A DNA stretch of 64,000 nucleotides from an uncultured Paracoccaceae bacterium (GTDB taxonomy: Bacteria; Pseudomonadota; Alphaproteobacteria; Rhodobacterales; Rhodobacteraceae): NCBI GenBank assembly GCA_934500835.1, contig CAKSTR010000006.1:124001-188000 (forward strand), read 5' to 3'. The translations under genes and the position numbers were made by a program. Below the pieces are notes generated by a model. The model was not told the DNA's origin. It did not search any database and worked only from the letters and a program-made list of their open reading frames with translations. Shown here piece after piece: positions 11,143 to 56,353 of this stretch; position 1 is the stretch's first letter, and every line of letters begins with the position of its first letter.

Positions 11143-11993
<851 letters not shown>

Positions 11994-11996
11994 CCC

Positions 11997-12044: not shown

Positions 12045-12062
12045 GTGCCCCCGGAGACTAAG

Positions 12063-12545: not shown

Positions 12546-12626
12546 AGGCTCCTAACCGGATCGCACCAGGGGGCAGTGCGAAGACGGCGCGAAGATAATC
12601 AGCCCCTGAGGGAAAGGATGAAGGGG

Positions 12627-38807: not shown

Positions 38808-38850
38808 TTGTCTTCTCCCTGTTTCGGGGCGTCCCTGCGCCCCCTTTGCT

Positions 38851-39735: not shown

Positions 39736-39760
39736 CTGATTCCCCCCGTTCCAATCATTA

Positions 39761-39777
39761 ATGCCAAAATAATACCA
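39761..39777 (-). promoter_or_regulatory. operator motif facing murQ
   Basis: Minus strand reads TGGTATTATTTTGGCAT, 25 bases before the murQ start. It matches the motif at 39851-39867 at 15 of 17 positions. Both are probably bound by the GntR-type regulator encoded at 40734-41498. Confidence 0.6.
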
Positions 39778-39850
39778 CTTGTAAAGACCCGGCCGCAATC
39801 AGGCGCATTTCCGGCGGTTTCCATCCTGCATCAAGCAGGGAGCTTGCAAA

Positions 39851-39867
39851 TGGTATTATCTTGGTAT
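39851..39867 (+). promoter_or_regulatory. operator motif facing the kinase operon
   Basis: Plus strand reads TGGTATTATCTTGGTAT, 24 bases before the kinase start. The mirror placement with the copy at 39761-39777 (25 and 24 bases from the start codons) points to coordinated control of both operons. Confidence 0.6.
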
Positions 39868-39891
39868 CCTCTCCATGACAGGGGATTCGCC

Positions 39892-40734: not shown

Positions 40735-41498
40735 TGGAGCAGCTTTTCAGCCCCGAAGGCTTTGATGATCCCGGCTCTGGTCCGCTGTATCTGCAACTGC
40801 AGCGGCGCATCGCGGATGCCATCGCCGCAGGCCGCCTTGTGCCAGGTGACAGCCTTCCGGCCGAACGGGACATGGCCACGATGACCGGCCTGTCGCGCGT
40901 CACCGTGCGCAACGCCATTCAGGCGCTGGTCGTGTCAGGCCAACTGGTGCAGCGCCGCGGCTCCGGCACCTTCATCGCGCAGAAGGTCGAACGGCTGGAG
41001 CAGGCGCTGTCCCTGCTGACCTCCTTCACCGAGGACATGGCCCGGCGCGGCAGATCTGTCGACTCGCAGTGGATCTCGCGCCGTATCGACGCGCCTGCGC
41101 CCGAAGAGGTCATGGCGCTTGGGCTTGGCGGCGATGAACATGTCGCGCGGCTGGAACGGGTCCGCCGTTCGGACGGCCTGCCCCTGGCGATCGAGCGCGC
41201 CTCGATCCCGGCCTCGGTCCTGCCCGATCCGGGCGCCGTCGAAGGCTCGCTTTACAAGACGCTCGAAGGGCTTGGCGCGCGTCCGGTCCGCGCGGTGCAG
41301 CGCATCTCGGCCGCCAACCTTGGCCCGCGCGACGCCGAATTGCTGGGCGTGACGCCCGGCGTGGCCGGTCTGCGGATCGAAAGGATCGGCTATCTGGCCT
41401 CGGGGCGCGTCGTGGAATTCACCCGCTCACTCTATCGCGGCGATGCCTATGACTTCGCCGTGGAACTGAAACTGTCACCGGAAGGACCGGCAAGATGA
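40734..41498 (+). CDS. GntR-family (HutC/NagR subfamily) regulator
   Basis: A 254-residue regulator: an N-terminal winged helix (PLYLQLQRRIADAI, LPAERDMATMTGLSRVTVRNAI) and a C-terminal UTRA ligand domain (about 85-250, ending FTRSLYRGDAYDFAVEL). Related NagR proteins respond to GlcNAc-6-P or GlcN-6-P. It is within the operon it probably controls through the paired motifs at 39761 and 39851. Confidence 0.93.
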   Translation: MEQLFSPEGFDDPGSGPLYLQLQRRIADAIAAGRLVPGDSLPAERDMATMTGLSRVTVRNAIQALVVSGQLVQRRGSGTFIAQKVERLEQALSLLTSFTEDMARRGRSVDSQWISRRIDAPAPEEVMALGLGGDEHVARLERVRRSDGLPLAIERASIPASVLPDPGAVEGSLYKTLEGLGARPVRAVQRISAANLGPRDAELLGVTPGVAGLRIERIGYLASGRVVEFTRSLYRGDAYDFAVELKLSPEGPAR

Positions 41499-42517
41499 TC
41501 ACGCAGATGGCCCGCGAAGTGGCCGAGATTCCCGCAGCCGCCCGCCGCTTTCTGGACCTGTCCGCCGCGCAGCTGCAAGAGGCCGGGGCCGCGCTGCGGC
41601 AGGCCGATCCGCGCATCGTTCTGACCGTCGCGCGCGGCTCGTCCGACCATGCCGCGACCTATCTGAAATACGCGACCGAACTGGTGGCCGGCCTGCCGGT
41701 CGCCTCGATCGGGCCTTCCATCGCCTCGATCTACCGGCGGCCGCTGTCGCTGGCGGGGGGGGCCTGCATCGGCATCTCGCAATCGGGGCAAAGCCCCGAC
41801 ATCGTGCAGATGTTGCAGACGGCGCGGCAGGGGGGTGCCCTGACCGTGGCGATCACCAATCACGCGGCCAGCCCCCTGGCCACCGCCGCCGCGCATTGCC
41901 TGCCGCTGCACGCCGGGACCGAAGCCGCCGTTGCCGCCACCAAGACCTTCGTCTGTTCGGTGCTGGCGGGCCTGTCGCTTCTGGCAGAATGGCGGCAGGA
42001 CCGCCCTCTGCAGGCTGCCATCGCGGCAGCGCCGAAGGCGATGGAACAGGCTCTGACGCTGGACTGGTCGCCGTTGTCGGCCCGGCTGTCGCGGGCGCAA
42101 TCGGCCTATGTGCTGGGGCGCGGCCCGGCCATCGGCATCGCGGCCGAAGCGGCGCTGAAGCTGAAGGAAACCTGCGGCCTGCACGCCGAGGGCTATTCGG
42201 CGGCCGAAGTTCTGCACGGCCCCTCCGCCATCGTCCATGCCGGCTTCCCGATCTTCGCGCTGGCCCCCGATGACGAGGCGCAGCCCCATGTCGTGGCAAC
42301 GGCCGAACGCCTTGCCGCCCAGGGCGCAGACGTGTTCCTGGTCGGGGCCGCGGCGAAGGGCGCCGTGACCCTGTCTGCCGTGCCGGACCTGCATCCGCTG
42401 ATCGCCCCCATCGTGCTTTCCGTGGCCTTTTACGCGTTTGTAGAGACACTTTCGCGCCGCCGCGGTTTCGATCCGGATACGCCCCCCCATCTGCGCAAGG
42501 TAACGGAAACCCTGTGA
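41495..42517 (+). CDS. SIS-domain aminosugar isomerase/deaminase (NagB-II type)
   Basis: A 340-residue two-SIS-domain protein related to the isomerase half of GlmS, lacking the glutaminase domain. Motifs: ARGSSDHAATYLKY, GISQSGQSPD, ATKTFVCSVLAGL and AAEVLHGPSAIV. In amino-sugar operons such proteins deaminate GlcN-6-P to fructose-6-P. It overlaps neighbours by 4 and 1 bases. The NagB-II role is inferred from context. Confidence 0.88.
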   Translation: MITQMAREVAEIPAAARRFLDLSAAQLQEAGAALRQADPRIVLTVARGSSDHAATYLKYATELVAGLPVASIGPSIASIYRRPLSLAGGACIGISQSGQSPDIVQMLQTARQGGALTVAITNHAASPLATAAAHCLPLHAGTEAAVAATKTFVCSVLAGLSLLAEWRQDRPLQAAIAAAPKAMEQALTLDWSPLSARLSRAQSAYVLGRGPAIGIAAEAALKLKETCGLHAEGYSAAEVLHGPSAIVHAGFPIFALAPDDEAQPHVVATAERLAAQGADVFLVGAAAKGAVTLSAVPDLHPLIAPIVLSVAFYAFVETLSRRRGFDPDTPPHLRKVTETL

Positions 42518-43626
42518 TGTCCACTTACAGCGGCGCTGCGCTTTTCGACGGAACCGCGTTCATCGACGGCCCGCTGTGCGTGGCCGGCGGGCGGGTCGCA
42601 GACAGATCCGACGGGCCGGCAATCCAGCTCGACGGCGGCTATCTGCTGCCCGGCCTGCTGGATCTGCAGGTCAACGGCGCGGGCGGGCATCAGGTCTCGG
42701 GGGCGACCACGGCCGACGATCTGCGACGGATGTGCCAGACCCACGCCCGGCTTGGCGCGACGGGCATCCTGCCGACGCTGATCACCGACACGCCCGAGGC
42801 GACCGCCGCCGTCCTTGCCGCCGGTGCCAGCGCCACAAGGGACGGGCTGCCGGGCTTTCTGGGCCTGCATCTGGAGGGGCCGCATCTGGACCCGCGGCGC
42901 AAGGGCGCGCATGATCCCGCATTGATCCGGCCGATGACCGATGCCGATGTGAACAGGCTCTGTGAAGGCAGAAAGGGCCTGCCCTCGCTGTTGGTCACGC
43001 TGGCGCCCGAAAATGCCACCTCGGCCCAGATCGCCACCCTAGCAGCGGCAGGCGTGACGGTCAGCCTTGGCCATACCGACTGCGCGCTGGCCACGGCGCA
43101 GAGCGCCTTCGATGCCGGCGCCACGGTTGTCACGCACCTTTTCAACGCCATGAGCCAGCTGGGCAACCGCGAACCCGGCCTGGTCGGTGCCGCGCTGACC
43201 GGCGCGCCGTTCTGCGGCCTGATCGCCGATGGCATCCATGTGGCACCACAGGCGATGCGGATTGCCATGGCGGCGGCTTCCGACCGGCTTTTCCTTGTGT
43301 CGGACTGCATGGCCCCCGCCGGCACCGATGTCACCGAATTCACGCTGGGCGGCCGCCGCATCCTGCGCCGGGACGGGCGGCTGACGCTGGAGGACGGCAC
43401 TCTCGCCGGGGCCGACTTGACGCTGCCGCAGGCGATCGCGGTGATGGTCGACCGGGTCGGCACCGCGCCGGAGGTGGCCTTCGCCATGGCAACGTCGCGC
43501 CCCGCCGCCTGTCTGGGCCGCGATGACATCGGCCATCTGCGGCACGGGGATCGGGCGGATTTCGTCCATCTCGGGCCGGACTTCAGCCTGCGCGGTGTCT
43601 GGCGCGATGGGGAAAGGGTGCTCTGA
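42517..43626 (+). CDS. nagA: N-acetylglucosamine-6-phosphate deacetylase
   Basis: A 369-residue amidohydrolase that makes GlcN-6-P from GlcNAc-6-P. Metal and catalytic motifs: LDLQVNGAGG, HLEGPHLDPRRKGAH, SLGHTDC, VTHLFNAMSQ and the catalytic aspartate in LVSDCMAPAG. It links MurQ and the kinase to the SIS deaminase. The start ATG shares one base with the preceding stop codon. Confidence 0.95.
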   Translation: MSTYSGAALFDGTAFIDGPLCVAGGRVADRSDGPAIQLDGGYLLPGLLDLQVNGAGGHQVSGATTADDLRRMCQTHARLGATGILPTLITDTPEATAAVLAAGASATRDGLPGFLGLHLEGPHLDPRRKGAHDPALIRPMTDADVNRLCEGRKGLPSLLVTLAPENATSAQIATLAAAGVTVSLGHTDCALATAQSAFDAGATVVTHLFNAMSQLGNREPGLVGAALTGAPFCGLIADGIHVAPQAMRIAMAAASDRLFLVSDCMAPAGTDVTEFTLGGRRILRRDGRLTLEDGTLAGADLTLPQAIAVMVDRVGTAPEVAFAMATSRPAACLGRDDIGHLRHGDRADFVHLGPDFSLRGVWRDGERVL

Positions 43627-43669
43627 CTTCCGCCTTTACAGGGCCGGAATTCTGCGGCTTACCTCTGGC

Positions 43670-44320
43670 ATGGCCGGACAGACCGACACCCTTATCGCCG
43701 CGATCATGGACTGGATCGACATCGGCCGCCTGAATCCGGGCGACCCGATTGACGAGGCCCTGCTGGCGGCCGAGTTCGGCACCTCGCGCACGCCCATCCG
43801 CGAGGCGATCCTGAAGCTTGAGGCCATGGGCCTGATCCGGCGTGAACCCCGCAAGGGCGCCAGCCTGTTCCGCCCGACGCTGGAAGAGTTCCTCGCCATC
43901 CTTGAGGTCCACGCAAAGCTTGAGGGACAGGCCGCCGGCCTTGCCGCCCGCCGCCTGTCGAAATCAGGGGCCGAGGCGCTGCAGCGCGTGGTGGCGCAAT
44001 GTCAGGACCATGCCGCCCGCCACGGCGACGGCAACCCGGACGGCTATTATCAGCTGAACCTGCGCTTTCACGAAACGGTCGCGGTTGCCGCCGGCAACCC
44101 TTTCCTGACCGAGATGATCAAGACCAACGCCCGCAAGCTCTTGGCCTATTACCGCGCGCGCTACCGCTATGCGGGGGCCATCGCCGCCTCGGCCGCCGAA
44201 CATGGCCAGTTGGCGCGGCTGATGCTGGATCGGGATTCAGCCGGGGCCGAGGCGATGATGCAGAACCACGTCCAGTTCGACCAGATCACCGCGATGGACC
44301 TGCTGGCGGCGCTGTCCTGA
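43670..44320 (+). CDS. GntR-family regulator (FadR/FCD subfamily)
   Basis: A 216-residue regulator with a winged helix (EALLAAEFGTSRTPIREAILKL) and a helical FCD ligand domain (about 80-210) whose conserved histidines and aspartate (LRFHETV, AAEHGQL) would bind a metal and an organic acid. Its last 35 bases overlap the convergent amidotransferase gene. It could serve the amino-sugar locus or, by proximity, the P450 cluster. Confidence 0.9.
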   Translation: MAGQTDTLIAAIMDWIDIGRLNPGDPIDEALLAAEFGTSRTPIREAILKLEAMGLIRREPRKGASLFRPTLEEFLAILEVHAKLEGQAAGLAARRLSKSGAEALQRVVAQCQDHAARHGDGNPDGYYQLNLRFHETVAVAAGNPFLTEMIKTNARKLLAYYRARYRYAGAIAASAAEHGQLARLMLDRDSAGAEAMMQNHVQFDQITAMDLLAALS

Positions 44321-44993
44321 CCCCTTCGAAGAAATCGACGATCCGCTGCGCCATCCGATCCGTCTCTGCCGGCCGGTTCAGAGACGCTTTGGCAGCGGCC
44401 GCCACTTGCGGCGGCAGCTTGGTTTCATATTCCGCCACCAGCGCCGTCGCGAAATCTTCCGTGATTTCGGGGTGATATTGCGTGGTCAGCACGCTCTGCC
44501 CGATGCGATAGGCGCCGACCGGACAGCCGGCGTTCCCGCCAAGAGCCTCGGCCTCCGGGGGAAGTTGCGTCACCTGTTCGACGTGGGCGGCATAAAGCCG
44601 GATCGGCGCGCCCTCCATCTGCGTCTCGGCCAGCCCGAACACCCATCCGCCGGGATTCTTCCCGACCTTGCCGCCCAGTGCCTTGGCAATGGCCTGATGC
44701 CCGAAACAGGCGCCGAAAACCGGCTGGCCCCTGGCCCTGATGTCCCGAATCACCTGCATCAGCCGATGCACCCAAGGCGCATCATCATGGACGGAAGCCG
44801 GGCTGCCGGTGATGATGAACCCGTCATAGGCGGCCAGATCGTCGGGAAACCGGCCATCCTTCACCGCGATGGTGGTGAACTGCCAGCCGGGCCGCAAGGG
44901 CAGAAGAAGATTGGTGAATTTCTCGCCATCCTTGGGGTGCTTCCGCGCGAAATCGCTCTCGTCGGTGTTCGCCATCAGGATCGCGATATGCAT
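44286..44993 (-). CDS. class I glutamine amidotransferase-like hydrolase
   Basis: A 235-residue GATase1 domain with the complete catalytic triad: Cys96 in FGACFGHQ, His174 and Glu176 in TQYHPEIT. No synthase domain is attached, as in gamma-glutamyl hydrolases of amine catabolism. It is divergent from the P450 gene across 74 bases and near a GS-like ligase, which would fit removal of a gamma-glutamyl group. GMP-synthase-like proteins of unknown role are an alternative. Confidence 0.85.
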   Translation of the reverse strand: MHIAILMANTDESDFARKHPKDGEKFTNLLLPLRPGWQFTTIAVKDGRFPDDLAAYDGFIITGSPASVHDDAPWVHRLMQVIRDIRARGQPVFGACFGHQAIAKALGGKVGKNPGGWVFGLAETQMEGAPIRLYAAHVEQVTQLPPEAEALGGNAGCPVGAYRIGQSVLTTQYHPEITEDFATALVAEYETKLPPQVAAAAKASLNRPAETDRMAQRIVDFFEGVRTAPPAGPSR

Positions 44994-45010
44994 GGGTCTG
45001 CGGCCTTTAC

Positions 45011-45042
45011 ATATTTATGAACACGTTTAGTATATTTATAAC
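45011..45042. promoter_or_regulatory. direct repeats in the amidotransferase/P450 promoter
   Basis: ATATTTATGAAC (45011-45022) and ATATTTATAAC (45032-45042) lie 21 bases apart, two helical turns, in an unusually AT-rich 74-base divergent promoter. Candidate operator for one of the nearby GntR regulators. Confidence 0.55.
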
Positions 45043-45067
45043 TCAGCTTCAGGCAAGGGAGTGGTGC

Positions 45068-46324
45068 ATGACGGTCTGGACCCCCACGGATGACGGCCAT
45101 GCCGATCTTTCCAGCCATGACACCTTCCTGCAGGGCCCACCGCACAACACCTTCGCCCGCCTGCGCCGCGAAGACCCGATGGCCTGGACCGAATATGCCG
45201 GCGGGCAGGGTTTCTGGTCGGTCACCCGCCATGCCGACATCCTTGATCTGAACGGCAAGCCCGATCTTCTGTCCAGCGCCCGTGGTATCAGGATGGAGGA
45301 CCAGACCTATGAGGAATACCTTGCCCGTCGCACCTTTCAGGAGACCGACGCCCCGGACCACATGAAGACGCGGGTCAAGGTCGCCAAAGCGTTCTCCAAG
45401 CCGGTGATCGCCCAGTTCGAGGGCATCATCCGCGATCTTTGCGGCCCGATTCTTGACGAGGCCCTTGCGAAGGGCAGTTTCGACGCCACCAAGGACATCG
45501 CGCGCCAGTTGCCGATGCGGATGCTGGGCCGGATCGTCGGTCTGCCAGAGCAGGATCTGCCCTGGCTGGTGGAAAAGGGCGATGCGCTGATCGCCAACAC
45601 CGACCCGGATTTCACCCAGCACGTCTTGGACAAGATGACGACGGACGAATTCCGCATGATGCCCTTCAACTCTCCGGCCGGGGCCGAGCTTTTCGTCTAT
45701 GCCAAGGATCTGATGCGGCAAAGGGCGGCAAGCGGTGACACCTCGGGCGTGCTGCACCTGATGTTGCAGCCCGGGTCCGACGGCTCGGTGATGCCCGAGC
45801 ATGAGTTCCGCAATCTCTTCTGCCTTCTGGTGGCGGCAGGCAATGACACCACCCGCTATTCGATCGCGGCCGGAATGCAGGCGCTGTGCCATCAACCCGA
45901 GCTTCTGGGCCAGATCCAGCGCGGCGAGGTGACCGAGACCATGGCCGACGAGATCATCCGCTGGGCCAGTCCCACCAGCTATTTCCGTCGCACCGCAGCC
46001 CGCGATTTCGAATACCACGGCAAGCAGGTGCGCGAAGGCGACAAGGTTCTTTACTGGTTCACCAGCGGCAACCGCGACGAGACCGCCTTCGACCAGCCGA
46101 TGCGCGTCGACCTTGGCCGCACGCCCAACCGGCATGTCTCCTTCGGGCAGGGCGGGCCGCATGTCTGCCTTGGCATGTGGCTGGCGCGGCTGGAGGTGCG
46201 CGTCCTTTTCGAGGAGCTTGCCAAGCGCCTTCGCGGCATCGAACCTGCGGGCGAACAGAAATTCCTGCGGTCGAACTTCATCGGCGGCATCAAGGAAATG
46301 CCCGTCAGGGTCACGCTTCAATAA
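45068..46324 (+). CDS. cytochrome P450
   Basis: A 418-residue soluble bacterial P450. I-helix AGNDTT (257-262), K-helix EIIR (295-298), and haem loop FGQGGPHVCLG with the thiolate Cys367. The haem loop has the longer GGPH form I know from the CYP124/CYP125 type rather than the standard FGxGxHxC. Start at ATG 45068; an upstream in-frame ATG at 45017 lies in the promoter. Electrons likely come from the ferredoxin two genes downstream. No ferredoxin reductase is visible. The substrate is unknown. Confidence 0.93.
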   Translation: MTVWTPTDDGHADLSSHDTFLQGPPHNTFARLRREDPMAWTEYAGGQGFWSVTRHADILDLNGKPDLLSSARGIRMEDQTYEEYLARRTFQETDAPDHMKTRVKVAKAFSKPVIAQFEGIIRDLCGPILDEALAKGSFDATKDIARQLPMRMLGRIVGLPEQDLPWLVEKGDALIANTDPDFTQHVLDKMTTDEFRMMPFNSPAGAELFVYAKDLMRQRAASGDTSGVLHLMLQPGSDGSVMPEHEFRNLFCLLVAAGNDTTRYSIAAGMQALCHQPELLGQIQRGEVTETMADEIIRWASPTSYFRRTAARDFEYHGKQVREGDKVLYWFTSGNRDETAFDQPMRVDLGRTPNRHVSFGQGGPHVCLGMWLARLEVRVLFEELAKRLRGIEPAGEQKFLRSNFIGGIKEMPVRVTLQ

Positions 46325-46357
46325 GCGGCGCAAGACCGCACCACAGGGAGACTACCG

Positions 46358-47650
46358 ATGTCCGAGCGCCTGCGCGCCATGTTCTGCGATCACCTCTCGA
46401 TCATGCGGGGGAAATACCTGCCCGCCTCGAAGATGCAGGATGACGAAAGCCGCTTTGCCCAGCCCACCTTCAGCGTTCATTTCGACAAGGATCTTTTGCT
46501 GGAGGCGCCGGGCACCAGATGCCTTCAGGGCCTGCCCGACATGACGCTGCGCTGGAAGGGCGATCAGATCCGGCCGGGCTGGGAACCCGCCACCCGCGTC
46601 GTTCTGGGCGACCTCTACGAAGGCGACGGCTCTCCGCTGCCGATGTGCCCGCGCGGCGCGCTGAAACGCGCGGTGGCGGGATGGAACAGGCACGGCCTGA
46701 CCCCGAAAGTCGGGATCGAACTGGAAGCTTACGCCTTCATGCGCAACGACAGCGGCCAGATCGTCCCCTATGACAATGCCGGCGGTGTGGTCTACGGCAC
46801 CGGCAATTTCGCCGATCCGCGCCGCTTCACGGATGCGATCTGGAACAAGGCACATGAAATCGGCCTGCCCCTGGACCTGATCACTGCCGAATATGACGCG
46901 CCGCAGTTCGAATTCACCCTGGCCTGCGACACCGCGGTCGAACATGTCGACACCGTCGTCCTTTTCCGCCAGATGGCGCGCGAGATCGCACTCGATCATG
47001 GCATCCTGCTGACCTTCCTGCCGAAACCCATTGCGGGCAAGGGCGGGTCAGGCCTGCATGTCAACCTGTCCTTCACCGACAGCCGCGGCGTGAACGCGCT
47101 GGCGAATGGCGAAAAGGGCGACCCCGACAACCTGAACGATCTGGCCAGAGGCTGCATCGCCGGCTGGATGACGCATCACAAGGGCATCGCCGGCCTCGTG
47201 GCACCGAACGCCCTGTCCTATGCCCGGCTGCAACCCGCCAGCCTGTCCGGCTTCTGGTGCAACTGGGGCGGCGACAACCGCAACGTCACGGCAAGGGTCA
47301 GCGCCGAGGGCGGCAAGAAGGCCCGGCTGGAGCACCGGATGCCCGACGCCGCAGCCAATCCCTATACCGCTGTCGCAACCGTGCTTCAGGCCGCGTTGCT
47401 GGGCCATGAAGGCAAGTATGACCTGCCGCCGAAGGAAACCGGCGACGGTTTCACCGGCAATGACGCGGCGCATGGCACCGCCGCCAGCCTGTCCGAGGCA
47501 CTGGACGACCTTGCCGCCGACACCGCCCTCACCGCAGCCGTGGGCCAGGGCCTTGTCGACAACCACATCTTCATGAAGCGCGCCGAGGTTGAGAAAACCG
47601 CCAACCTGGAAGGCGACGCCCTGCGCGACTGGTATATCTGGTACCTCTGA
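46358..47650 (+). CDS. glutamine-synthetase-like (gamma-glutamyl ligase) enzyme
   Basis: A 430-residue member of the GS fold family. Metal and glutamate-site motifs are present: GIELEAYAF, SGLHVNLSF, NWGGDNRNVTARV, ARLEHRMPDAAANPYTA. It is close to GS length but diverges from GlnA, so it is more likely a gamma-glutamyl-amine ligase. It sits 33 bases after the P450 gene and before ferredoxin, suggesting it conjugates an amine connected to the P450 reaction (inference). Confidence 0.88.
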   Translation: MSERLRAMFCDHLSIMRGKYLPASKMQDDESRFAQPTFSVHFDKDLLLEAPGTRCLQGLPDMTLRWKGDQIRPGWEPATRVVLGDLYEGDGSPLPMCPRGALKRAVAGWNRHGLTPKVGIELEAYAFMRNDSGQIVPYDNAGGVVYGTGNFADPRRFTDAIWNKAHEIGLPLDLITAEYDAPQFEFTLACDTAVEHVDTVVLFRQMAREIALDHGILLTFLPKPIAGKGGSGLHVNLSFTDSRGVNALANGEKGDPDNLNDLARGCIAGWMTHHKGIAGLVAPNALSYARLQPASLSGFWCNWGGDNRNVTARVSAEGGKKARLEHRMPDAAANPYTAVATVLQAALLGHEGKYDLPPKETGDGFTGNDAAHGTAASLSEALDDLAADTALTAAVGQGLVDNHIFMKRAEVEKTANLEGDALRDWYIWYL

Positions 47651-47657
47651 CCCGGCC

Positions 47658-47708
47658 ATTTTCTGTCCCCAAATATCCTGCGGGGGTCCGGGGGTGCAAA
47701 ACCCCCGG
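47658..47708. repeat. family-B inverted repeat, copy 2
   Basis: ATTTTCTGTCC...AAATATCC followed by a G-rich stretch and a hairpin at 47688-47708 (arms CCGGGGG around TGCAAAA), lying between the GS-like and ferredoxin genes. It has the same order and almost the same sequence as the copy at 37483-37536. Confidence 0.85.
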
Positions 47709-47738
47709 CTTCCCTCCCCACACATCCCGGAGCCACCC

Positions 47739-48053
47739 ATGAAAGCCACCTGGATCCTGCCCGACGGCCGCCAGATCACCGCCGAGGTGAAGGAAGGTCT
47801 GAACCTGATGGCGGCCGCGGTCGCCAACAACGTCCCCAATGTCATCGGGGAATGCGGCGGCAACCTTTCCTGCGCCACCTGCCACGTCTATGTCGCCGAC
47901 GACTGGGTCGCCACGACGGGCGAGGCCGGGGATTTCGAGGACCCGATGCTGGATGTCGCCGAGGCCGAGCGCCGGCCGACCTCGCGCCTGTCGTGCCAGC
48001 TGAAAATGTCGCCCGCGCTGGACGGCATCGTCCTGATCGTGCCCCAGCCCTAG
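47739..48053 (+). CDS. 2Fe-2S ferredoxin (adrenodoxin/putidaredoxin type)
   Basis: A 104-residue electron carrier. Cluster cysteines are at 39, 45, 48 and 86 (CGGNLSCATC and LSCQL), the C-x5-C-x2-C-x37-C spacing of P450-partner ferredoxins. The ATG at 47739 has a GGAG upstream. It is the third gene after the P450, with a family-B repeat before it. Confidence 0.95.
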   Translation: MKATWILPDGRQITAEVKEGLNLMAAAVANNVPNVIGECGGNLSCATCHVYVADDWVATTGEAGDFEDPMLDVAEAERRPTSRLSCQLKMSPALDGIVLIVPQP

Positions 48054-48726: not shown

Positions 48727-49395
48727 ATGCCCCGCAGCACGACTCTCACCGAAGACGCCTATCGCAGCCTGCGCCGCGACATCCTGCGCGGCCATTGGAA
48801 ACCGCAGGAACCCTTGCGGATGCACCAGCTTTCCGACCGCTACGGCATGGGCCAGTCCCCCCTGCGCGAGGCTCTCAGCCGCCTGCAGGCCGAACGGCTG
48901 GTGGTGCTGATGCCGCTCAAGGGATTCACCGTGGCCCCCCTGACCCCGGCCGAGATGTGGGACGCCATCAGTTTCCGCATCCTGCTTGAGACCGAAGCCC
49001 TGCGCCGCTCGATCCGCGATGGCGATGACCTGTGGGAAGGCGCGATTGTCGCGGCGCTGCACGCGCTGGTCCTGCAAAGCAAACGCCTGGAGGACAGCGG
49101 GACCGAGGCCGATCAGGACGAATTCGAGACCCGCCACCACGCCTTCCATCACGCGCTGATCGCCGCCTGCAACTCGCCCCGGATGCTGGAGCAGTTCGAC
49201 CGGCTTTATGCCGAATGCGAACGCTATCGCCTGCCGGCCATGGGAACGGGCGCAAGGCGGGATGTGCAGGGCGAACATCGCGCCATCGCCGATGCCACCC
49301 TGGCCCGCGATGCAGACAGGGCCAGCGACCTGCTTGCACGCCACTACCGCGCCACCGCCGAACGGGTCGAGGCGCGCTTCCGCGAAATGGCCTAG
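48727..49395 (+). CDS. GntR-family regulator (FCD subfamily)
   Basis: A 222-residue regulator with the winged helix QLSDRYGMGQSPLREALSRL and an FCD helical domain (ETRHHAFHHALIAACNS, GEHRAIADATLARD). Its stop overlaps the convergent flavin reductase gene by 4 bases. It is the nearest candidate, besides TetR, for control of the leftward catabolic operon. Confidence 0.92.
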   Translation: MPRSTTLTEDAYRSLRRDILRGHWKPQEPLRMHQLSDRYGMGQSPLREALSRLQAERLVVLMPLKGFTVAPLTPAEMWDAISFRILLETEALRRSIRDGDDLWEGAIVAALHALVLQSKRLEDSGTEADQDEFETRHHAFHHALIAACNSPRMLEQFDRLYAECERYRLPAMGTGARRDVQGEHRAIADATLARDADRASDLLARHYRATAERVEARFREMA

Positions 49396-49898
49396 CCCTT
49401 CGGCTCGATCCCCACCGCCCGGCGATAGGCGCGCTGCCCGTAAAGCAGCGCATGGGGGTTGTCGGCCAGCACCACCTTCGTCACCCGGCCGACGATGATG
49501 TGATGCGTCTCCCACAGGACCGAGGTTGCCAGCCTGCACTCGAACGTTGCCGTCGCCCCGGCCAGCACCGGCTGCCCCAGGGGGCCGGGCTGCCATTCCG
49601 CCCGGTCGAACCGCGCGCCATGGTCATCCCCGCCCCGCCCGGCGAAAAGGTCGGACAATGGCTGCTGGTCCTCGGCCAGAAGATTGGCGCAGAAGGCGCG
49701 GTTCTTCATGATCGCCGTGGCCGCGGGGGACAGGTGATGGATGCAGGCCAGAAGCGAGGGATGCTCCCCGTCCGCCGAGACCGAGGTCAGCGACGAAATC
49801 GTCACCCCTGCCCTGCCGCCCGGCCCATCGGTGGTGGCGACCGCGACAAAAGTCGCGGCCCGGCTCATCCCTTCCAGAAAGGCGGTGCGCAGGTCCAT
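49392..49898 (-). CDS. flavin reductase (FMN-binding split-barrel)
   Basis: A 168-residue NAD(P)H:flavin reductase of the HpaC/FRP type. It shows FVAVATTDGPGGRAGVTISSLTSVSADGEHPSLL in the fold core (best-known part AGVTISSLTSVSA), FCANLLAEDQ and HHIIVGRV. It would supply reduced flavin to a two-component monooxygenase, the best candidate being the protein at 53215-54522. It is the last gene of the operon, 11 bases after the GS-like gene. Confidence 0.9.
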   Translation of the reverse strand: MDLRTAFLEGMSRAATFVAVATTDGPGGRAGVTISSLTSVSADGEHPSLLACIHHLSPAATAIMKNRAFCANLLAEDQQPLSDLFAGRGGDDHGARFDRAEWQPGPLGQPVLAGATATFECRLATSVLWETHHIIVGRVTKVVLADNPHALLYGQRAYRRAVGIEPKG

Positions 49899-49909
49899 CC
49901 TGTTCTCCC

Positions 49910-51250
49910 TCAGCCCAGATCGAAGAAGCGTTCCAGTTCCACATCCGGCACGCGGCGGCGGAACTCGTCATACTGGCTTTGACGGGTGGCGGTGAAGGCA
50001 TCGACGAAGCGCTGCCCCAGCCAGTCCTTCGCGAAGGCCGATCCGCGCAGCCGCTCGATCGCCTCGGGCATCGAGCGGGCAAAGTCGCGGGCGGGTTCCT
50101 GCGCATAGCCCGAACCGATGACCTCCGGGTCCGGTTCGATCTTGCCCATGATGCCGGCCACCCCGGCGGCAATGGTGGCGGCGGCCGACAGATAGGGGTT
50201 GGAATCGGCACCGGGAAGGCGGTTTTCTACCCGCAGCGACCCGGCGTCATGCCCGACCAGCCGGAAGCAGGTGGTGCGGTTCTCGTAGCCCCAGGTCAGG
50301 CCCGGAGGCGCGAAGGTGCCCGGCGCAAAGCGGCGGTAGCTGTTCACCGTCGGCTGGAAGATCAGCGTCATGTCGCCGATATAGGCCTGCAGACCGCCAA
50401 GGAACCAGCGGAAGGTCTGGCTGATGCCGTTTTTCTGGTCCTTGTCCCAGAACAGCGACTTTCCGGCGGTGTCCTTCATGCTGATATGCAAGTGGATCGA
50501 CTGGCTGTCGGCGTTCTCGCTCCAGCGCGGCATGAAGGTGACGGATTTGCCCTGACGCAGCGCCAGCGCACGGATGAAGTTCTTCAGCAGCACCAGTTGA
50601 TCCGCCGGCTCCACCCCGGTGCCTGCGCCGATGCAGGCCTCCATGAAGCCCGCGCCGATCTCTTCGTGCATCTTGGCAAGGTCGATCCGCAGCGGCTCGC
50701 ACATGGCCGACATCGCCTCGTACCATTCGGTCTGCACCACCTGATACAGGATCAGGTCATGGCTGGCATGCAGCGTCGCCGGTTTCAGATTGCGATAGCC
50801 CTTCGCCTTGGCGCTTTCGGGCGTCTCGTCGAACAGGGTGTATTCCAGTTCCATGCCGTATTTCGGCTCCAGCCCGGCCTTTTCGGCCCGTGCGAGCACC
50901 TTCTTCAGCAGCGCCCGCGGGCAGATCTCGGCCGAGGCGCCCGAGTAGTTGGACAGCACCAGAAGATCGTGCCCGGCCCTGGACCACGGCAGGCGGCGGG
51001 CAGAGGACGGGTCCACCACCAGGGGATCGTCATGAAAATCCCCGGTGTCGTCATTCACCCCCGGCATGTTCAGATGCACATCCGTCGGGTCCAGTGCCAG
51101 CTGCGCAGGCGCCATCCCCATGCCGTTCTTCGCAATCCCCTTCAGGCTGCCGGCCGAGACCATCTGGCCCCGCAAAAGCCCGTTGGTATCGGTCATCGCA
51201 ACCGTGGCAAAGCGGCTTGCCGGATCGGCAAGGAAGTCGTCAAGCGTCAT
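49910..51250 (-). CDS. second glutamine-synthetase-like ligase
   Basis: A 446-residue GS-fold enzyme with YGMELEYTLFDE, SIHLHISMKD, PTVNSYRRFAPGTFAPPG, WGYENRTTCFRL and VENRLPGADSNPYL. Closest in style to PuuA/GlnA3-like gamma-glutamyl ligases rather than GlnA. It overlaps the TetR gene by 4 bases and is translationally coupled. A role in glutamylating an amine or amino intermediate is inferred. Confidence 0.9.
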   Translation of the reverse strand: MTLDDFLADPASRFATVAMTDTNGLLRGQMVSAGSLKGIAKNGMGMAPAQLALDPTDVHLNMPGVNDDTGDFHDDPLVVDPSSARRLPWSRAGHDLLVLSNYSGASAEICPRALLKKVLARAEKAGLEPKYGMELEYTLFDETPESAKAKGYRNLKPATLHASHDLILYQVVQTEWYEAMSAMCEPLRIDLAKMHEEIGAGFMEACIGAGTGVEPADQLVLLKNFIRALALRQGKSVTFMPRWSENADSQSIHLHISMKDTAGKSLFWDKDQKNGISQTFRWFLGGLQAYIGDMTLIFQPTVNSYRRFAPGTFAPPGLTWGYENRTTCFRLVGHDAGSLRVENRLPGADSNPYLSAAATIAAGVAGIMGKIEPDPEVIGSGYAQEPARDFARSMPEAIERLRGSAFAKDWLGQRFVDAFTATRQSQYDEFRRRVPDVELERFFDLG

Positions 51251-51927
51251 GTCTCACCTGTTTGGGAAGGCGCGCCTGTCAGCGCGTTCAGTTGTTCGAT
51301 GTCCGTCTTTGCGGCGGTTGAATAGGCGCGCAGGAACACCCGCAGGCCGTTGTCGATATAGCGGGCCAGCGTGGCCCGGTCCGGGACCGCATCCGGCATG
51401 TACAGAGCCTGAGTCCGCGGGGCCGAAAGGATCAGGCCCCACAGGTCCTGCGCGGCAAGTTCGGGGTCCTCGAACGCCAGCCGCCCAATGGCGCGCTGGC
51501 TGTCGAGATAGCGCATGATGCCGCGCAGAAGGTGATCGGGGCCTGCGGCCTGATAGGCGCGCCCGATTTCGGGAAAACGCTGGACCTCGCCGATGACCAG
51601 CCGGGCCAGCGACAAAAGGTCGGGGCGCATCACGGTATCGGCATAGTCCCAGGCGAAGATGTGCAGGTCCTGCACCATACCTTCGGGCGACGGATGTTCG
51701 AACACATCCAGCATCCGGTCGCGCTTGCCCAGCATCATCGCCTGGAACAGCGATTCCTTGGACGGGAAATAGGTGTAAAGCGTTGGCTTGGTCAGCCCGG
51801 CCTCGGCGGCCACCGCATCCATGGTGCAGCCAGAGTAGCCCATCTCGGCGAAGACCTTCAAAGCCGCATCCAGAATGCGCTTTTCGCGGTCAAGCCGGTT
51901 CTGCTGGCGGCGGGGAAGCGGAGTCAT
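51247..51927 (-). CDS. TetR-family regulator
   Basis: A 226-residue repressor: RILDAALKVFAEMGYSGCTM, then AEAGLTKPTLYTYFPSKESLF form the helix-turn-helix domain, followed by an all-helical ligand domain. It lies inside the operon, overlapping neighbours by 4 bases on both sides, so it probably controls this operon through dyads in the promoter at 55602-55700. Confidence 0.93.
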   Translation of the reverse strand: MTPLPRRQQNRLDREKRILDAALKVFAEMGYSGCTMDAVAAEAGLTKPTLYTYFPSKESLFQAMMLGKRDRMLDVFEHPSPEGMVQDLHIFAWDYADTVMRPDLLSLARLVIGEVQRFPEIGRAYQAAGPDHLLRGIMRYLDSQRAIGRLAFEDPELAAQDLWGLILSAPRTQALYMPDAVPDRATLARYIDNGLRVFLRAYSTAAKTDIEQLNALTGAPSQTGET

Positions 51928-53213
51928 GGCAGCTTGCGCAGAAAGGCCAGAAGGGCGCGATTGTAGGGGCCGGGCTGTTCCACGTTGCAGACATGGCCGG
52001 CGTTGGCGATCACCTCGAACCGCACATCGGGGCGGGGGGCATTGTCCCAGATCCGGCCGCCGACATTGCGGATCTCGGCCGGGGGGGCCAGCCGGTCATG
52101 TTCGCCCGTCATCAGCAGGACCGGCATGGTCAGCCTGGCGAAATCGAACTTCTCAAGCGGGTTGGTAAAGCAGACCAGCGCATCGCGGTAGGTGGCCGCA
52201 GGAATGGCCGCCATGCTGTCATAGAGCCGCTTTCTGGCGTCGTCCGAAGCGTCCGGCCCGGCCAGAACCTTGACCACCGCAGGCGCAAAGTCGCGCGGGG
52301 TCTGCCCTGCATCCATCGGCACCTCGCGGCTGATGCGAAAAGCCTCACGTTCGTCGGGTCCGGCTTCGGACATGCCGGTGCAGCCGCCCGACAGCACCAG
52401 CCCATCCAGCAGATGCGGGTGGCGCATAGCGAAAGAGGTGGCGATCCACGACCCGTAGGACAGACCCGCAAGAACCAGCCGCTCCGCGCCAAGAACCTGC
52501 ATCACCCGCAGGATGTCGCCGCAATAGTCATCCACCGTGGACTGGCGCGGACCAAGCGTGCTGCCGCCATAGCCCCGCAGATCCAGTGCGGCCGCAGGCA
52601 TCACGCCGCTGGCCGCCGCAAGCTGGTTGTCCCAGTTGTCGCGATTGCCGCCAATGCCATGCAGGAACAGGCACAGCCGTTTTCCCGGTCCGCCCGCCGT
52701 GGTCAGCGCAAGGCGCGGCAGGTCATCGATCAGCCGCTCTTCGACGGGCGGCAAGGGCGTGTCCTCGAAGCGATCCATGTTCGGAATGTGCCTCTGCGCC
52801 AGCGTTTCCAGCGCCCCGATCCCTGCCTGAAAGACCGCTTTCGTGCCCTCGCAGATCGCGCCCAGCCGTGCCGACGGCGCGCGCACCACCGCCGACCAGC
52901 TGACCACCGCGCCTCCTTCGCTCGCCGCAGTCACCGTCACCCGGGCGTCATAGGCCTCGCAGCCCGCGATGCCTTCCAGGTGGGTGTAGCCAAGCACGCG
53001 GTCAGAGTCGGAGAACCAGGTCAGCTGCTCGCGGTAAAGCGTGTCCTCCCCCTTCACGGTGAAGGCGCGGATCTGCGCTCCGCGCGGGTCGCGCTCTTCG
53101 CGGATGGCGTCCATCCAGGGATGCCAAAGCCCGCAGAAATCGCGCAACACGGCCCAGACCTGATCCGGGTCGGCCGCAACGCGCCCCGTGACCTGCACCG
53201 TGTCGCGCGGCAT
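51924..53213 (-). CDS. SRPBCC domain fused to alpha/beta hydrolase
   Basis: A 429-residue two-domain protein. Residues 1 to about 150 look like a START/polyketide-cyclase-type SRPBCC domain (VWAVLRDFCGLWHPWMDAI, then VVSWSAVVRAP). Residues about 165-429 are an alpha/beta hydrolase: oxyanion HGIGGN, nucleophile Ser252 in GLSYGS, Asp373 in GEHDRLAP, His407 in NAGHVCN. It begins 1 base after the upstream gene. A ring-opened product of the NicX-like enzyme is a plausible substrate. The fusion is uncommon in my experience. Confidence 0.88.
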   Translation of the reverse strand: MPRDTVQVTGRVAADPDQVWAVLRDFCGLWHPWMDAIREERDPRGAQIRAFTVKGEDTLYREQLTWFSDSDRVLGYTHLEGIAGCEAYDARVTVTAASEGGAVVSWSAVVRAPSARLGAICEGTKAVFQAGIGALETLAQRHIPNMDRFEDTPLPPVEERLIDDLPRLALTTAGGPGKRLCLFLHGIGGNRDNWDNQLAAASGVMPAAALDLRGYGGSTLGPRQSTVDDYCGDILRVMQVLGAERLVLAGLSYGSWIATSFAMRHPHLLDGLVLSGGCTGMSEAGPDEREAFRISREVPMDAGQTPRDFAPAVVKVLAGPDASDDARKRLYDSMAAIPAATYRDALVCFTNPLEKFDFARLTMPVLLMTGEHDRLAPPAEIRNVGGRIWDNAPRPDVRFEVIANAGHVCNVEQPGPYNRALLAFLRKLP

Positions 53214-53214
53214 C

Positions 53215-54522
53215 TCAGCGAACGCCCTTGATGCTGCCTTCGCTGCCCCGCCACAGCGAGGTCCGCGCGCCACCCTCATCGCCGGGGGCGTTGTCCACCT
53301 CGTCCATGTCGTAAAGCGCGAGGACACCGATATAGTCCTCCATGATCTCCGACGTGTAGGGCAGCATCAGCGCGCCGCAGCGGCTGTCGCGATACATCCG
53401 CTCCAGCGGCAGGCTTTTCAGCATCGACTGGCCGCCGCAGGTGCGGATCGCCAGCGCGGCCAGTTCCTGCACCCCCTCCATGACGTTGTATTGCGCGGCA
53501 TACATGCGCATCACCTCGCCCTTGGTCGGGAAGCCCTTCGCCTCGCCAAAGGCCTGCCACCAGAGGGCGCGCATGTTCGCCAGACGGGCATACATCTTCG
53601 ACACGGCAACGCGCTTGGTCGCGAACATCCGGCGGTCGATCGGCGGCTGGCCGGGGATGCGGCCCTGCAGATAGGCCACGGTGAAATCGAAGGCCCCCTG
53701 CGCCACGCCCATGTAGGTTGGCGAAAGGGTGGCCATCATATGCGGCCAGTTCGCCAGCGTCTTGCCGAAGATCCCTTTCGGCATCAGCAGATCCTCGCGG
53801 GTCACAAAGACATCCTTCAGGATCAGATCGCGGCTGTTGGTGCCGCGCATCCCCAGCGGGTCCCAGTCCCCCTTCACCGACAGGCCGGGATTGTCCTTGT
53901 GCACAACGAAGATCATCGTGTCTTCGTGGCGCGGCTCCACCCCCTCGAACACCTCGGTGCAGACGATGGTGTAGTAGTCGCAATACCCGGCCAGCGAGGC
54001 GAATTTCTTGAACCCGTTGATCTTCCAGCCGCCCTCGACCTCGCGGCACTGGGTCTGGTTCGGCTTCGAGGTCCAGTTCTGCCCGCCTTCCGAGATCGGC
54101 TGCGAATAGATCGCGCGTTCGGCAATCGCCCGACGGAACTGGCGTTCGCGCAAGGGGGCGAATTCGGCCTTCTCCTCGGGCGTGAGGTTCGGCATCTCGA
54201 ACATGAACCGCGACCAGGCCATGGACGAGTTGTGCATGTTGAAGGTCAGCGCGGTGGCGCCGCAGTACTTGCCGATCTCGGCCCCGACCATGGCGTATTC
54301 GCCCATGGTAAAGCCCATGCCGCCGAATTCGACCGGGATGCACAGCGTCAGGAAGCCCTCATCCGCCAGATCCTTGTAATTCTCGACCGGAAAGGACGCA
54401 TCGTCATCCACCGCCTTCGCCCGCTCGGCGAATCTCGGCCCCAGTTCGTTCACCCGGCGCAGGATCTTCTGCACTTCGGGCCGGATGCGGGAGAGGTCAT
54501 AGTAGTCGGCAATATCGCTCAT
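53215..54522 (-). CDS. acyl-CoA-dehydrogenase-fold flavoprotein, possible monooxygenase
   Basis: A 435-residue protein with ACAD landmarks: IPVEFGGMGFTMGEYAM, the middle beta domain with GFKKFASLAGYCDYY, and the C-terminal helical domain AIRTCGGQSMLKSL followed by RMYRDSRCGAL. Where medium-chain ACADs have the catalytic glutamate (YEGTS) this reads LPYTS (387-391), so the usual dehydrogenase base is absent. With flavin reductases on both sides, an HpaB/DszC-like monooxygenase role fits better than dehydrogenation, though some ACADs place the glutamate elsewhere. Start at 54520-54522. Confidence 0.85.
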   Translation of the reverse strand: MSDIADYYDLSRIRPEVQKILRRVNELGPRFAERAKAVDDDASFPVENYKDLADEGFLTLCIPVEFGGMGFTMGEYAMVGAEIGKYCGATALTFNMHNSSMAWSRFMFEMPNLTPEEKAEFAPLRERQFRRAIAERAIYSQPISEGGQNWTSKPNQTQCREVEGGWKINGFKKFASLAGYCDYYTIVCTEVFEGVEPRHEDTMIFVVHKDNPGLSVKGDWDPLGMRGTNSRDLILKDVFVTREDLLMPKGIFGKTLANWPHMMATLSPTYMGVAQGAFDFTVAYLQGRIPGQPPIDRRMFATKRVAVSKMYARLANMRALWWQAFGEAKGFPTKGEVMRMYAAQYNVMEGVQELAALAIRTCGGQSMLKSLPLERMYRDSRCGALMLPYTSEIMEDYIGVLALYDMDEVDNAPGDEGGARTSLWRGSEGSIKGVR

Positions 54523-54548
54523 CACGGGTCTCTCTTGCGAAAAGGGGA

Positions 54549-55601
54549 TCAGAGGGCCAGCTCGCCCTGCAGCACGCCGTCCTTCACGACGACACGGCCG
54601 TCCAGCGCGATGGTGCAGTTGCGCATCGGCAGGTCGAAATGGCCAAGGGTGTAGCGGCCGGCATATTGGTTGGCGCCGGTGGACCACAGGAAGCTGCCCG
54701 CCAGCGCGCGGAACTCCACCGCCTGCATGTCGCGCTTGTCATACATCGCGGCGGTGATCCATTTCGCGCCGGGATGCATCCCCCAGCCGACATGGCTCAT
54801 GCCGTAAGCGTTCTTGTCGTCCCAGGCTTCCATGTATTCGCGGAAGTGCAGGGCATCGATGCCGTCGCCCTTGATGGCGGTGACGAAATCGTTCTCGATG
54901 GTGAAGTCGATCTGGCTGGTCAGGTAGGTCTTGAACGTCAGGTTCATGTCGCCGACGCCCATGACGATGCGGCCGTTGACCGCATTCTTGCCGGGGAAGG
55001 CCAGGCACAGCCCGCCCGGCCAATGCGCCACGGCACCCGGCGTGGTGCCGAAGCCCGCCGTGCCACCGCAGGGCGCGCCGCGCAGGTCCACCGTCAGATC
55101 GGTGCCAAGGGCCGAAGTGACCCGCATCTGCGACGCTTCCTTCAGCATCTGGATACCGGCCTGCACCTTTGGCCCGTGTTCGGCCTTCGGCTCGGTCCGC
55201 TCAAGGATCTCGGGGTGTTCGTTGGTGATCACCAGAAGGCGGGTGCGTCCGGCGTCTTCGATCTCGGGCCATTCAGGGGCGTGGATCAGCCCCTCCACCG
55301 TGCAATCGACGATCACCTCACACAGTTTCAGCGCCTCGATCACGGCACGGTTGCCCTGGATCGCCCAGCTTGTGCCGGTGGATTTCACCGGAACCGGCGC
55401 CGATTGCGGCGGCGTCGGCATCTGGATCATGCAGAACTCGGCGCCCAGATCATAGGCGGCAAGCTCGCTCAGTTGCACCAGCACCGGGCGCGACTGGGTT
55501 TCGGACAGGATCGCGATGCGCGTGCCCGTCCCGATACCGTTCAAAGCGAAGACCCGGCGAAAGGCGGCCAGCCATTTGCCTTCGATGCGTTCCTGAAGCA
55601 T
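54549..55601 (-). CDS. NicX-like 2,5-dihydroxypyridine 5,6-dioxygenase family protein
   Basis: A 350-residue protein, the same length as Pseudomonas NicX, with the C-terminal pattern YGMSHVGWGMHPGAKW, STGANQYAG, GHFDLPMRNC. Expected Fe(II)-site residues His270, Ser307, His321 and Asp323 fall at spacings close to those I recall for NicX (His265, Ser302, His318, Asp320). NicX opens 2,5-dihydroxypyridine to N-formylmaleamate. The family shares its fold with M29 aminopeptidases, so an aminopeptidase-like role is the main alternative. First gene of the six-gene operon. Confidence 0.8.
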   Translation of the reverse strand: MLQERIEGKWLAAFRRVFALNGIGTGTRIAILSETQSRPVLVQLSELAAYDLGAEFCMIQMPTPPQSAPVPVKSTGTSWAIQGNRAVIEALKLCEVIVDCTVEGLIHAPEWPEIEDAGRTRLLVITNEHPEILERTEPKAEHGPKVQAGIQMLKEASQMRVTSALGTDLTVDLRGAPCGGTAGFGTTPGAVAHWPGGLCLAFPGKNAVNGRIVMGVGDMNLTFKTYLTSQIDFTIENDFVTAIKGDGIDALHFREYMEAWDDKNAYGMSHVGWGMHPGAKWITAAMYDKRDMQAVEFRALAGSFLWSTGANQYAGRYTLGHFDLPMRNCTIALDGRVVVKDGVLQGELAL

Positions 55602-55612: not shown

Positions 55613-55690
55613 CTGTTGACGATTCGCGTCGTCCGCGAATTTCTTTACTCTGGAGTTAAAGTTTCACAGGGCAAGCGAATCTGTCAACAG
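55613..55690. promoter_or_regulatory. nested inverted repeats in the promoter of the NicX-like operon
   Basis: CTGTTGACGATTCGC (55613-55627) is mirrored by GCGAATCTGTCAACAG (55675-55690). Inside lie ATTCGCG-N5-CGCGAAT (55622-55640, perfect) and CTTTACTC-TG-GAGTTAAAG (55643-55661, one-base asymmetry). The minus strand carries a consensus TTGACA at the outer repeat. Likely operators for the TetR or GntR regulator. Confidence 0.6.
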
Positions 55691-55703: not shown

Positions 55704-55724
55704 CTGATTTTCGACGAAAATCAG
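55704..55724. repeat. TTCGWCGAA-core palindrome overlapping a stop codon
   Basis: Perfect 10-bp arms CTGATTTTCG around A. The stop codon of the leftward flavin reductase gene (55721-55723) lies in its right arm. Confidence 0.85.
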
Positions 55725-56353
55725 GAAGTTCCGCCGGTCAGTTGCTTCCAGGTCGGCCGCGCCAGGCTGAACGTGTCCCGGCTGCGCACATAGTCGCTGC
55801 CGAAAGAGCGTGCCACAAGATCCAGCGCCGGCGTGTCGATATGCGCCCGCTCGGCATCCAGCAGGAAGCGGTCCTCGATATGCACTGCCAGCACCCGGCC
55901 GATCACCACGGTCTGGTTCGGCCCGGTCACCACCGATGACAGCGCCCGGCATTCATAGCTGACCGGGCTGTCGGCGATCCGGGGCGGCGCGACATGCTGC
56001 GAGGGCGCCGTCGCCACCCCCGCAAAGGCCAGTTCGTCCACTCCGCGCGGCGCGTCGGCCGAGGTCACGTTCATCACCTCCACCAGCCGTTCGGGCACCA
56101 GATTGACCACGAACTCCCCGGTGTCGAGGATGTTCCTTGCGGTATCCTTGAACCCGCGGTCCGGCGCCTTCATCAGCCCCAGCGCAATGGTGGGCGGGGC
56201 AGAGCCCATCACGTTGAAGAAGGAATAGGGCGCTGCGTTCAGCGCACCATCGGTGCCCTTGGTCACGACCCAGGCAATCGGGCGCGGAATCGTGGTCGCC
56301 GCCAGAAGCTTGTAGGCGATCGGCTCGGCCACCTCGTCCAGATCGTATCGCAT
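55721..56353 (-). CDS. flavin reductase family protein (second)
   Basis: A 210-residue split-barrel flavoprotein related to the flavin-reductase-like domain family: IPRPIAWVVTKGTDGALNAAPYS (core IPRPIAWV), TGEFVVNLVPERL, VIGRVLAVHIEDRFL. It precedes the NicX-like operon in the same direction with 119 bases and a palindrome between, so it may be a separate transcript. It could serve the same monooxygenase as the reductase at 49392. Confidence 0.88.
   Translation of the reverse strand: MRYDLDEVAEPIAYKLLAATTIPRPIAWVVTKGTDGALNAAPYSFFNVMGSAPPTIALGLMKAPDRGFKDTARNILDTGEFVVNLVPERLVEVMNVTSADAPRGVDELAFAGVATAPSQHVAPPRIADSPVSYECRALSSVVTGPNQTVVIGRVLAVHIEDRFLLDAERAHIDTPALDLVARSFGSDYVRSRDTFSLARPTWKQLTGGTS

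Follow-up and report, generated by a model that had tools for sequence, protein, structure and literature searches.

A conserved operon led by a NicX-like gene in an uncultured Paracoccaceae bacterium, and its possible role in the breakdown of a tryptophan-related aromatic compound

A stretch of 64,000 nucleotides from an uncultured Paracoccaceae bacterium (GenBank assembly GCA_934500835.1, contig CAKSTR010000006.1, positions 124,001 to 188,000; the whole stretch is called the window here) carries at 49392-55601 a six-gene operon whose lead gene encodes a homolog of NicX, the Fe(II) dioxygenase that opens 2,5-dihydroxypyridine. The operon is real and conserved, is built from known families and is without an assigned function in the sources searched; no paper describing it was recognised in the open-licence literature, supplements excluded. 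The reading put first here, at a probability of roughly 45%, is that this TetR-controlled operon breaks down an aromatic amine or acid, probably one related to tryptophan (indole- or kynurenine-like), thereby freeing a (hydroxy)anthranilate-type acid.

All six genes lie on the minus strand. The NicX-like gene (54549-55601, 350 aa) is followed by those for a flavoprotein of the acyl-CoA dehydrogenase (ACAD) fold (53215-54522, 435 aa, with an ACAD domain), a fusion of an SRPBCC domain with an alpha/beta hydrolase (51924-53213, 429 aa, Polyketide_cyc2 plus Abhydrolase_1), a TetR-family regulator with an AefR-like C-domain, probably an autoregulator (51247-51927, TetR_N/TetR_C_7), a glutamine synthetase (GS)-like ligase (49910-51250, 446 aa, Gln-synt_C) and the flavin reductase FlrB, the probable partner of the ACAD-fold protein (49392-49898, Flavin_Reduct, PF01613). 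Gaps from NicX to FlrB measure 26, 1, -4, -4 and 11 bases, so the six tightly spaced leftward genes described in an earlier annotation made from the letters alone (the sequence-only reading) stand as drawn. The unit extends beyond this interval: a second flavin reductase-domain protein, FlrA (55721-56353, minus, PF01613), is encoded 119 bases upstream of NicX in the same direction, a GntR/FCD regulator (48727-49395, plus) is convergent to the operon, and a companion module occupies 44286-48053. A perfect 10-base inverted repeat, CTGATTTTCG/CGAAAATCAG, stands at the FlrA end (55704-55724) and is shared with the related locus L005.

Among solved chains the lead protein matches Pseudomonas putida NicX (7cn3; E 2.5e-55, residues 13-342) and nothing else up to E 1; a profile made from 12 orthologues again found 7cn3 as the sole solved-chain match, and identity to the NicX proteins of three nic operons is 36-38% over the full length. 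According to the available part of the NicX study (PMC7910607), the iron of NicX is held by His265, Ser302, His318 and Asp320, the pyridine is contacted by Glu177 and His189, and roles are also given for Leu104, His105, Arg293 and Glu308; Glu177 forms hydrogen bonds with the pyridine N1 and O1, and the E177A variant retains 2.7% of the activity. The window counterparts of the iron ligands are H270, S307, H321 and D323, the four putative iron-site residues that had already been called conserved. Across 112 clade sequences (85 window-type, five of a subgroup at 70% and 22 of a wider draw; at most 110 are distinct, as L134 and L136 probably repeat L048 and L047) both histidines and the serine are invariant, and the aspartate is present in 111, with valine in the remaining one. 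Counterparts of Arg293 and His105 occur in 112/112 and of His189 in 110/112; the His105 position is not diagnostic, however, since two of the three nic-operon NicX proteins have phenylalanine there. At the Glu177 position the clade has threonine (94), valine (12), glycine (3) or asparagine (3) and in no case glutamate, whereas all three nic-operon NicX proteins keep it; the window protein has T181. Because of this loss 2,5-dihydroxypyridine is an unlikely substrate of the clade, and we read these proteins as having an intact ring-cleaving iron site with, apparently, another ring in the pocket. The predicted structure (pLDDT 47.6) is too poor for docking or a pocket check; a Foldseek search with this poor model listed NicX first (rmsd 20.8) and then M29 peptidases, rows that were not used as evidence.

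A neighbourhood survey of homologues, which had been proposed as a check, shows the core operon recurring in 85 loci (the best 80 of 350 genome loci, four plasmids and the window; several are cut by contig ends and gene calls in the relatives are heuristic), with neighbours that suggest anthranilate or tryptophan. NicX is present in 85 of them, the ACAD-fold protein in 83, the hydrolase in 82, TetR in 78 and the GS-like ligase in 76; given this recurrence, the gene order is far from chance. The companions are more variable: APC permease 57, FlrA 39, FAA hydrolase (FAH) 39, a gentisate dioxygenase-like protein (GDO) 36, a nitrilase-like protein (NIT) 23 and a CoA ligase 10. Carriers are mostly Rhodobacterales and Rhizobiales, and the trait is patchy, a NicX-like match with E <=1e-120 being found in 10/149 genomes of one family draw and 3/199 of one order draw. 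In five loci (L029, L032, L064, L066, L070) NicX is immediately preceded by genes for a CueR-type regulator and an ATPase of the copper-exporting type (families scanned for L029).

The palindrome CTTAACT-N4-AGTTAAG, with at most three mismatches, precedes NicX in 71/85 upstream regions, compared with 28/3400 random stretches of these loci, which may include true sites, and 9/1700 shuffles. The copy in the window (55643-55660, two mismatches) is the sole such site in its 64 kb. All 64 sites with two mismatches or fewer in 3.0 Mb (some records repeat) stand before NicX, so the site is not common to the companion modules examined. It is a putative operator, to which the TetR-family protein would bind.

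The partner enzymes are consistent with an oxidative and hydrolytic route. In the ACAD-fold protein LPYTS replaces the dehydrogenase motif YEG(A/T)S (alignment read by eye), whose Glu we take to be the catalytic one of acyl-CoA dehydrogenases. With its ACAD fold and a flavin reductase in its operon, as expected of an ACAD-fold two-component flavin monooxygenase, the protein is predicted to be one; a literature search with the PDB codes of the ACAD structures closest to it gave no paper. The best NCBIfam match of FlrB is RutF (118 bits, under the cut-off of 255). FlrA lies immediately upstream of NicX in 37 loci, and in many relatives it closes the GDO module as its last gene. The hydrolase triad, assigned by motif and by eye as S253, D374 and H408 (alignment numbering, with one leading codon too many), is invariant in 13/13 sequences.

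Fusions occur among these partners. In 16 Rhizobiales loci, including L028 (15694-16866; domains scanned for this locus only), a LysR-type substrate-binding domain that has no DNA-binding part is joined to the flavin reductase of the operon; a ligand-sensing flavin reductase, which this implies, would be unusual. SRPBCC, alpha/beta hydrolase and TetR share one reading frame of 653-667 codons in L102, L103 and L104 (domains scanned for L103, where it lies at 6537-8537, minus), enzyme and regulator thus being one protein. The locus L122 has two flavin reductase-MarR-like fusions (10367-11311 and 11715-12809; MarR part by eye) divergent from its NicX-hydrolase-ACAD operon.

The GS-like ligase of six loci, and a second such ligase (GS2) of three, were compared with E. 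coli GlnA and with PuuA. The GlnA ammonium-site residues D50 and E327, the functional roles of the compared residues being in part those we presume, are replaced by A and F, both counterparts being lost in PuuA too, and the metal and glutamate residues are kept; GS2 has Asn at GlnA His271. The protein thus has the pattern of organic-amine glutamylating enzymes and is a putative amine glutamylase, which sharpens the earlier proposal of a ligase handling an amino or acid intermediate; its score against NCBIfam GGputSyn is 176, far under the cut-off of 650. GS2 (46358-47650, plus; identified by domain scan and residue comparison) belongs to the companion module, together with a cytochrome P450 (45017-46324, plus, domain scan), a 2Fe-2S ferredoxin (47736-48053, plus, PF00111) and a class-I glutamine-amidotransferase-like protein (GATase; 44286-44993, minus, PF00117), a possible gamma-glutamyl hydrolase in whose alignment the Cys and His-Pro-Glu motifs are visible by eye. 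The P450-GS2 pair lies near the NicX operon in the window, L005, L006, L038, L079, L084 and L103; ferredoxin and GATase are added in the window. Next to this module, 37554-44320 holds an apparent amino-sugar-type cluster (solute-binding protein, BadF/BadG-type ATPase, GntR-UTRA, SIS, amidohydrolase, FCD regulator).

In part of the loci a GDO-FAH-NIT(-FlrA) module adjoins NicX, and relatives of the GntR/FCD regulator are divergent to it in many. GDO resembles gentisate dioxygenase 3bu7 (563 bits) and NIT the NIT4 nitrilase 6i00 (353 bits). The two closest relatives (L005, L006) have GDO-FAH-NIT-APC divergent from an operon of the 2-aminobenzoyl-CoA type in their genomes; no such divergent operon was seen within the 20 kb examined in L116 and L117, the remaining two GDO genomes. 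The absence of NicE and NicF noted earlier holds for the window operon; of the 85 loci, however, two (L028, L035) have inside the operon a NicE-type isomerase that shares 65-71% identity with the isomerases of three nic operons, and 25 have a nitrilase-family hydrolase beside it (NIT 23, NIT2 2). The nitrilase may, with the isomerase of L028 and L035, act as amidase of a maleamate intermediate.

The link to anthranilate comes from further neighbours. In 10/85 loci the operon is closely followed by a CoA ligase gene, which in one of them (L068) is convergent. Relatives of this ligase adjoin genes of the 2-aminobenzoyl-CoA monooxygenase/reductase type in L109 and L112 and lie within about 13 kb of them in L108 and L111; PRK08255 matches reach 1270-1354 bits in L109, L111 and L112 (cut-off 1078), and L108 was assigned by homology. 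In Shinella loci the CoA ligase directly precedes tryptophan 2,3-dioxygenase (TDO), which scores 433.9 in L111 (cut-off 390.7) and is seen in L004, L073, L076 and L108 too. Single genes near the CoA ligase of L105, L106, L107, L110 and L113 indicate no clear pathway among the part of the neighbours scanned. Window-type loci with anthranilate-CoA or TDO genes number 10/85, all those with the CoA ligase, three having TDO. Four aerobic anthranilate routes are described, among them those via gentisate (through 5-hydroxyanthranilate) and 2-aminobenzoyl-CoA (PMC4539516, in the accessible portion).

A wider draw used the L122 protein as query, which matched at E <=1e-95 in 19/398 and 26/385 genomes (two in both, 43 distinct); L122 was already in the set, 20 of the other 42 genomes were taken and L123 came from the order draw. 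The resulting 22 loci (L122-L143, four of them window-type) are mostly of a sister subclade, its sampled members being 56-76% identical to L122, which is itself 54% identical to the window protein. The typical arrangement there is NicX-hydrolase-ACAD-ligase; in some loci a flavin reductase-MarR-like fusion and TRAP-type genes are added. Of the 22 loci, 10 have TDO or genes of the anthranilate-CoA type at up to about 10 kb from NicX, versus 0/20 control stretches with such genes (Fisher p 0.0006), and for the 2-aminobenzoyl-CoA monooxygenase/reductase the counts are 6/22 versus 0/20 (p 0.02), with controls placed arbitrarily by the author in 16 of the same genomes, a gene list that is partly post hoc, p values uncorrected for kinship and loci that are not independent. 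A pyridoxal phosphate enzyme in L122 was considered as a kynureninase and gave only weak matches, to cysteine-desulfurase-type chains.

Since both kinds of lower module, for 2-aminobenzoyl-CoA and for gentisate, accompany the operon in part of its carriers, the core is suggested to act on an amine or acid related to tryptophan and to release (hydroxy)anthranilate from it. The substrate and every reaction of the following route we infer from the observed families, residues, operon, operator-like site and genomic association. The compound would be taken up by the APC permease or another transporter and its amino group gamma-glutamylated by the GS-like enzyme; the ACAD-fold protein with FlrB would hydroxylate the ring, the NicX-family Fe(II) enzyme would open a ring other than 2,5-dihydroxypyridine, and the SRPBCC-hydrolase would cleave the ring-opened product to a (hydroxy)anthranilate-type acid. 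This acid may then enter the 2-aminobenzoyl-CoA route or one through the gentisate dioxygenase and FAA hydrolase; some carriers have the genes for these close to the operon or at another genomic site. The sequence-only reading had proposed hydroxylation, ring cleavage and hydrolysis of an N-heterocycle: the gene set fits these three steps, whereas the nicotinate-like pyridine version of it is at odds with the lost Glu177 and with neighbours pointing to anthranilate and tryptophan.

It is a more doubtful extension that the clade forms a new NicX-family class of ring cleavage, whose Fe(II) enzyme would open the N-ring of an indole or quinoline in oxidised form, derived from tryptophan, serotonin, tryptamine or a kynurenate-like compound, to give anthranilate. 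A dihydroxyindole oxygenase was purified in 1968 and is named without a gene in the accessible part of a 2018 review, according to which the gene for the branch of indole degradation through gentisate was still undiscovered at that time (PMC6221969); the NicX-like gene could be the gene of such an oxygenase. Two indole papers, in the portions available, do not name a peptidase-type gene.

Several points weigh against the release of (hydroxy)anthranilate from a tryptophan-related compound, beginning with the arbitrary control and the partly post hoc, kinship-affected test just described; without L122 the enrichment stands at 9/21 loci. None of the observations identifies the substrate as an indole or a kynurenine. 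The DNA examined holds no anthranilate-CoA or TDO gene in 75 of the 85 window-type loci, nor in any of the five 70% subgroup members, and neither TDO nor the CoA ligase need be more than a neighbour. The wider-draw loci belong mostly to the sister subclade and mostly do without GS and SRPBCC, so that their substrate may differ. No GS orthologue was found in 4/7 genomes checked, and glutamylation is therefore not universal. Among 12 genomes without GDO beside NicX four have GDO elsewhere and eight are without any GDO match, and the nitrilase-family gene (NIT, 23/85 loci) has no firm role in the scheme.

Of the alternatives, one turns the pathway around: the NicX-like enzyme would cleave the benzene ring of hydroxyanthranilate, and the operon would consume tryptophan-derived anthranilate without producing any. 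A para-aminophenol ring would need no pyridine-binding glutamate, TDO lies near NicX in L122, L131, L137 and the Shinella loci, and the TRAP-type transporter genes of L122-type operons fit carboxylates; the nearby CoA ligase and the 2-aminobenzoyl-CoA-type operon would, however, amount to a second anthranilate route at one site, with GDO a third, and this reversal is unlikely. No better placed is a substrate unrelated to tryptophan, an aromatic or cyclic amine that would be gamma-glutamylated, oxidised by the P450 or the ACAD-fold protein, opened by the NicX-like enzyme and hydrolysed. It suits the way amine modules vary by locus, from GS with APC, through P450 with GS2 (some with GATase), to a flavin amine oxidase (L077, L102), DAO and sarcosine-oxidase-like genes (L104) and a betaine-type ABC transporter (L083), as well as the likeness of GDO to gentisate dioxygenase; but it leaves unexplained why TDO and anthranilate-CoA genes are enriched, and it too seems improbable.

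Lower still stands a pyridine or hydroxypyridine route like that of nicotinate or picolinate, for which speak NicX as the closest characterised relative found and the presence of a NicE-type isomerase in L028 and L035. The loss of Glu177 throughout the clade, together with the neighbourhoods, is the reason why a nicotinate-type route is not the first choice, the operon moreover having neither a NicC-type monooxygenase nor NicF, whereas the three nic operons compared carry a different set. Homarine and trigonelline were considered as well; a literature search on them gave nothing useful. Finally, an M29-type aminopeptidase is hardly credible for the lead gene, in agreement with the NicX-like assignment of the sequence-only reading: public records name orthologues "peptidase M29" or "2,5-dihydroxypyridine 5,6-dioxygenase", but no PF02073 (M29) match appears up to E 5, true M29 genes are separate in 2/5 relatives (G012, G168; the M29 search did not report the NicX-like gene), their products are without counterparts of H270, R298 and S307, and a tree also sets the NicX-like proteins apart, so that the first name is contradicted by the sequence and the second is doubtful for the clade.

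Among known systems, the 2-aminobenzoyl-CoA and gentisate routes of anthranilate, in the available account (PMC4539516), are represented in some relatives by their gene types, close to the operon or to its partner module, but these are lower pathways, and no gene of theirs turned up in the window. The indole iif/ind pathway resembles the route proposed here in having a flavin monooxygenase with a reductase and anthranilate as product, but the consulted text does not name a NicX-family gene, which the window operon has (PMC6221969). If the link to anthranilate is true, the operon would provide the genes for a further tryptophan- or indole-type route in soil, freshwater and marine bacteria.

The glutamyl-organic-amine synthetases (GoaS: NpaA1, AtdA1, PuuA), as covered by the accessible text (PMC11335346), have lost the counterparts of GlnA Asp50 and Glu327 and kept the metal and glutamate sites, like the window ligase, which differs in its low GGputSyn score. 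In the pip/mor clusters for cyclic amines a P450 stands with GS-like and ferredoxin-system genes (PMC9477822, partial text), gene types that the window module shares, with a GATase besides. A molinate/morpholine paper, in its available part, is relevant to the P450 module only.

The nic operon (NicC, NicE, NicD, NicX, NicF; in the three compared, these names are the author's reading of the annotation) has NicX with an alpha/beta hydrolase beside it, as does the window operon, which differs in having neither the NicC-type FAD monooxygenase nor the isochorismatase-type NicF; a maleate isomerase is found only in L028 and L035 of the 85 loci. With NicX itself, which in the portion available is said to define its subtype among the ring-cleaving non-heme iron enzymes (PMC7910607), the window protein shares the four iron ligands and the counterparts of His105, His189 and Arg293, whereas Glu177 and Glu308 are replaced and insertions or deletions lie near the counterparts of Cys76 and His105. 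A widespread clade that has the iron site of NicX without its pyridine-binding residue would show that this fold opens other rings.

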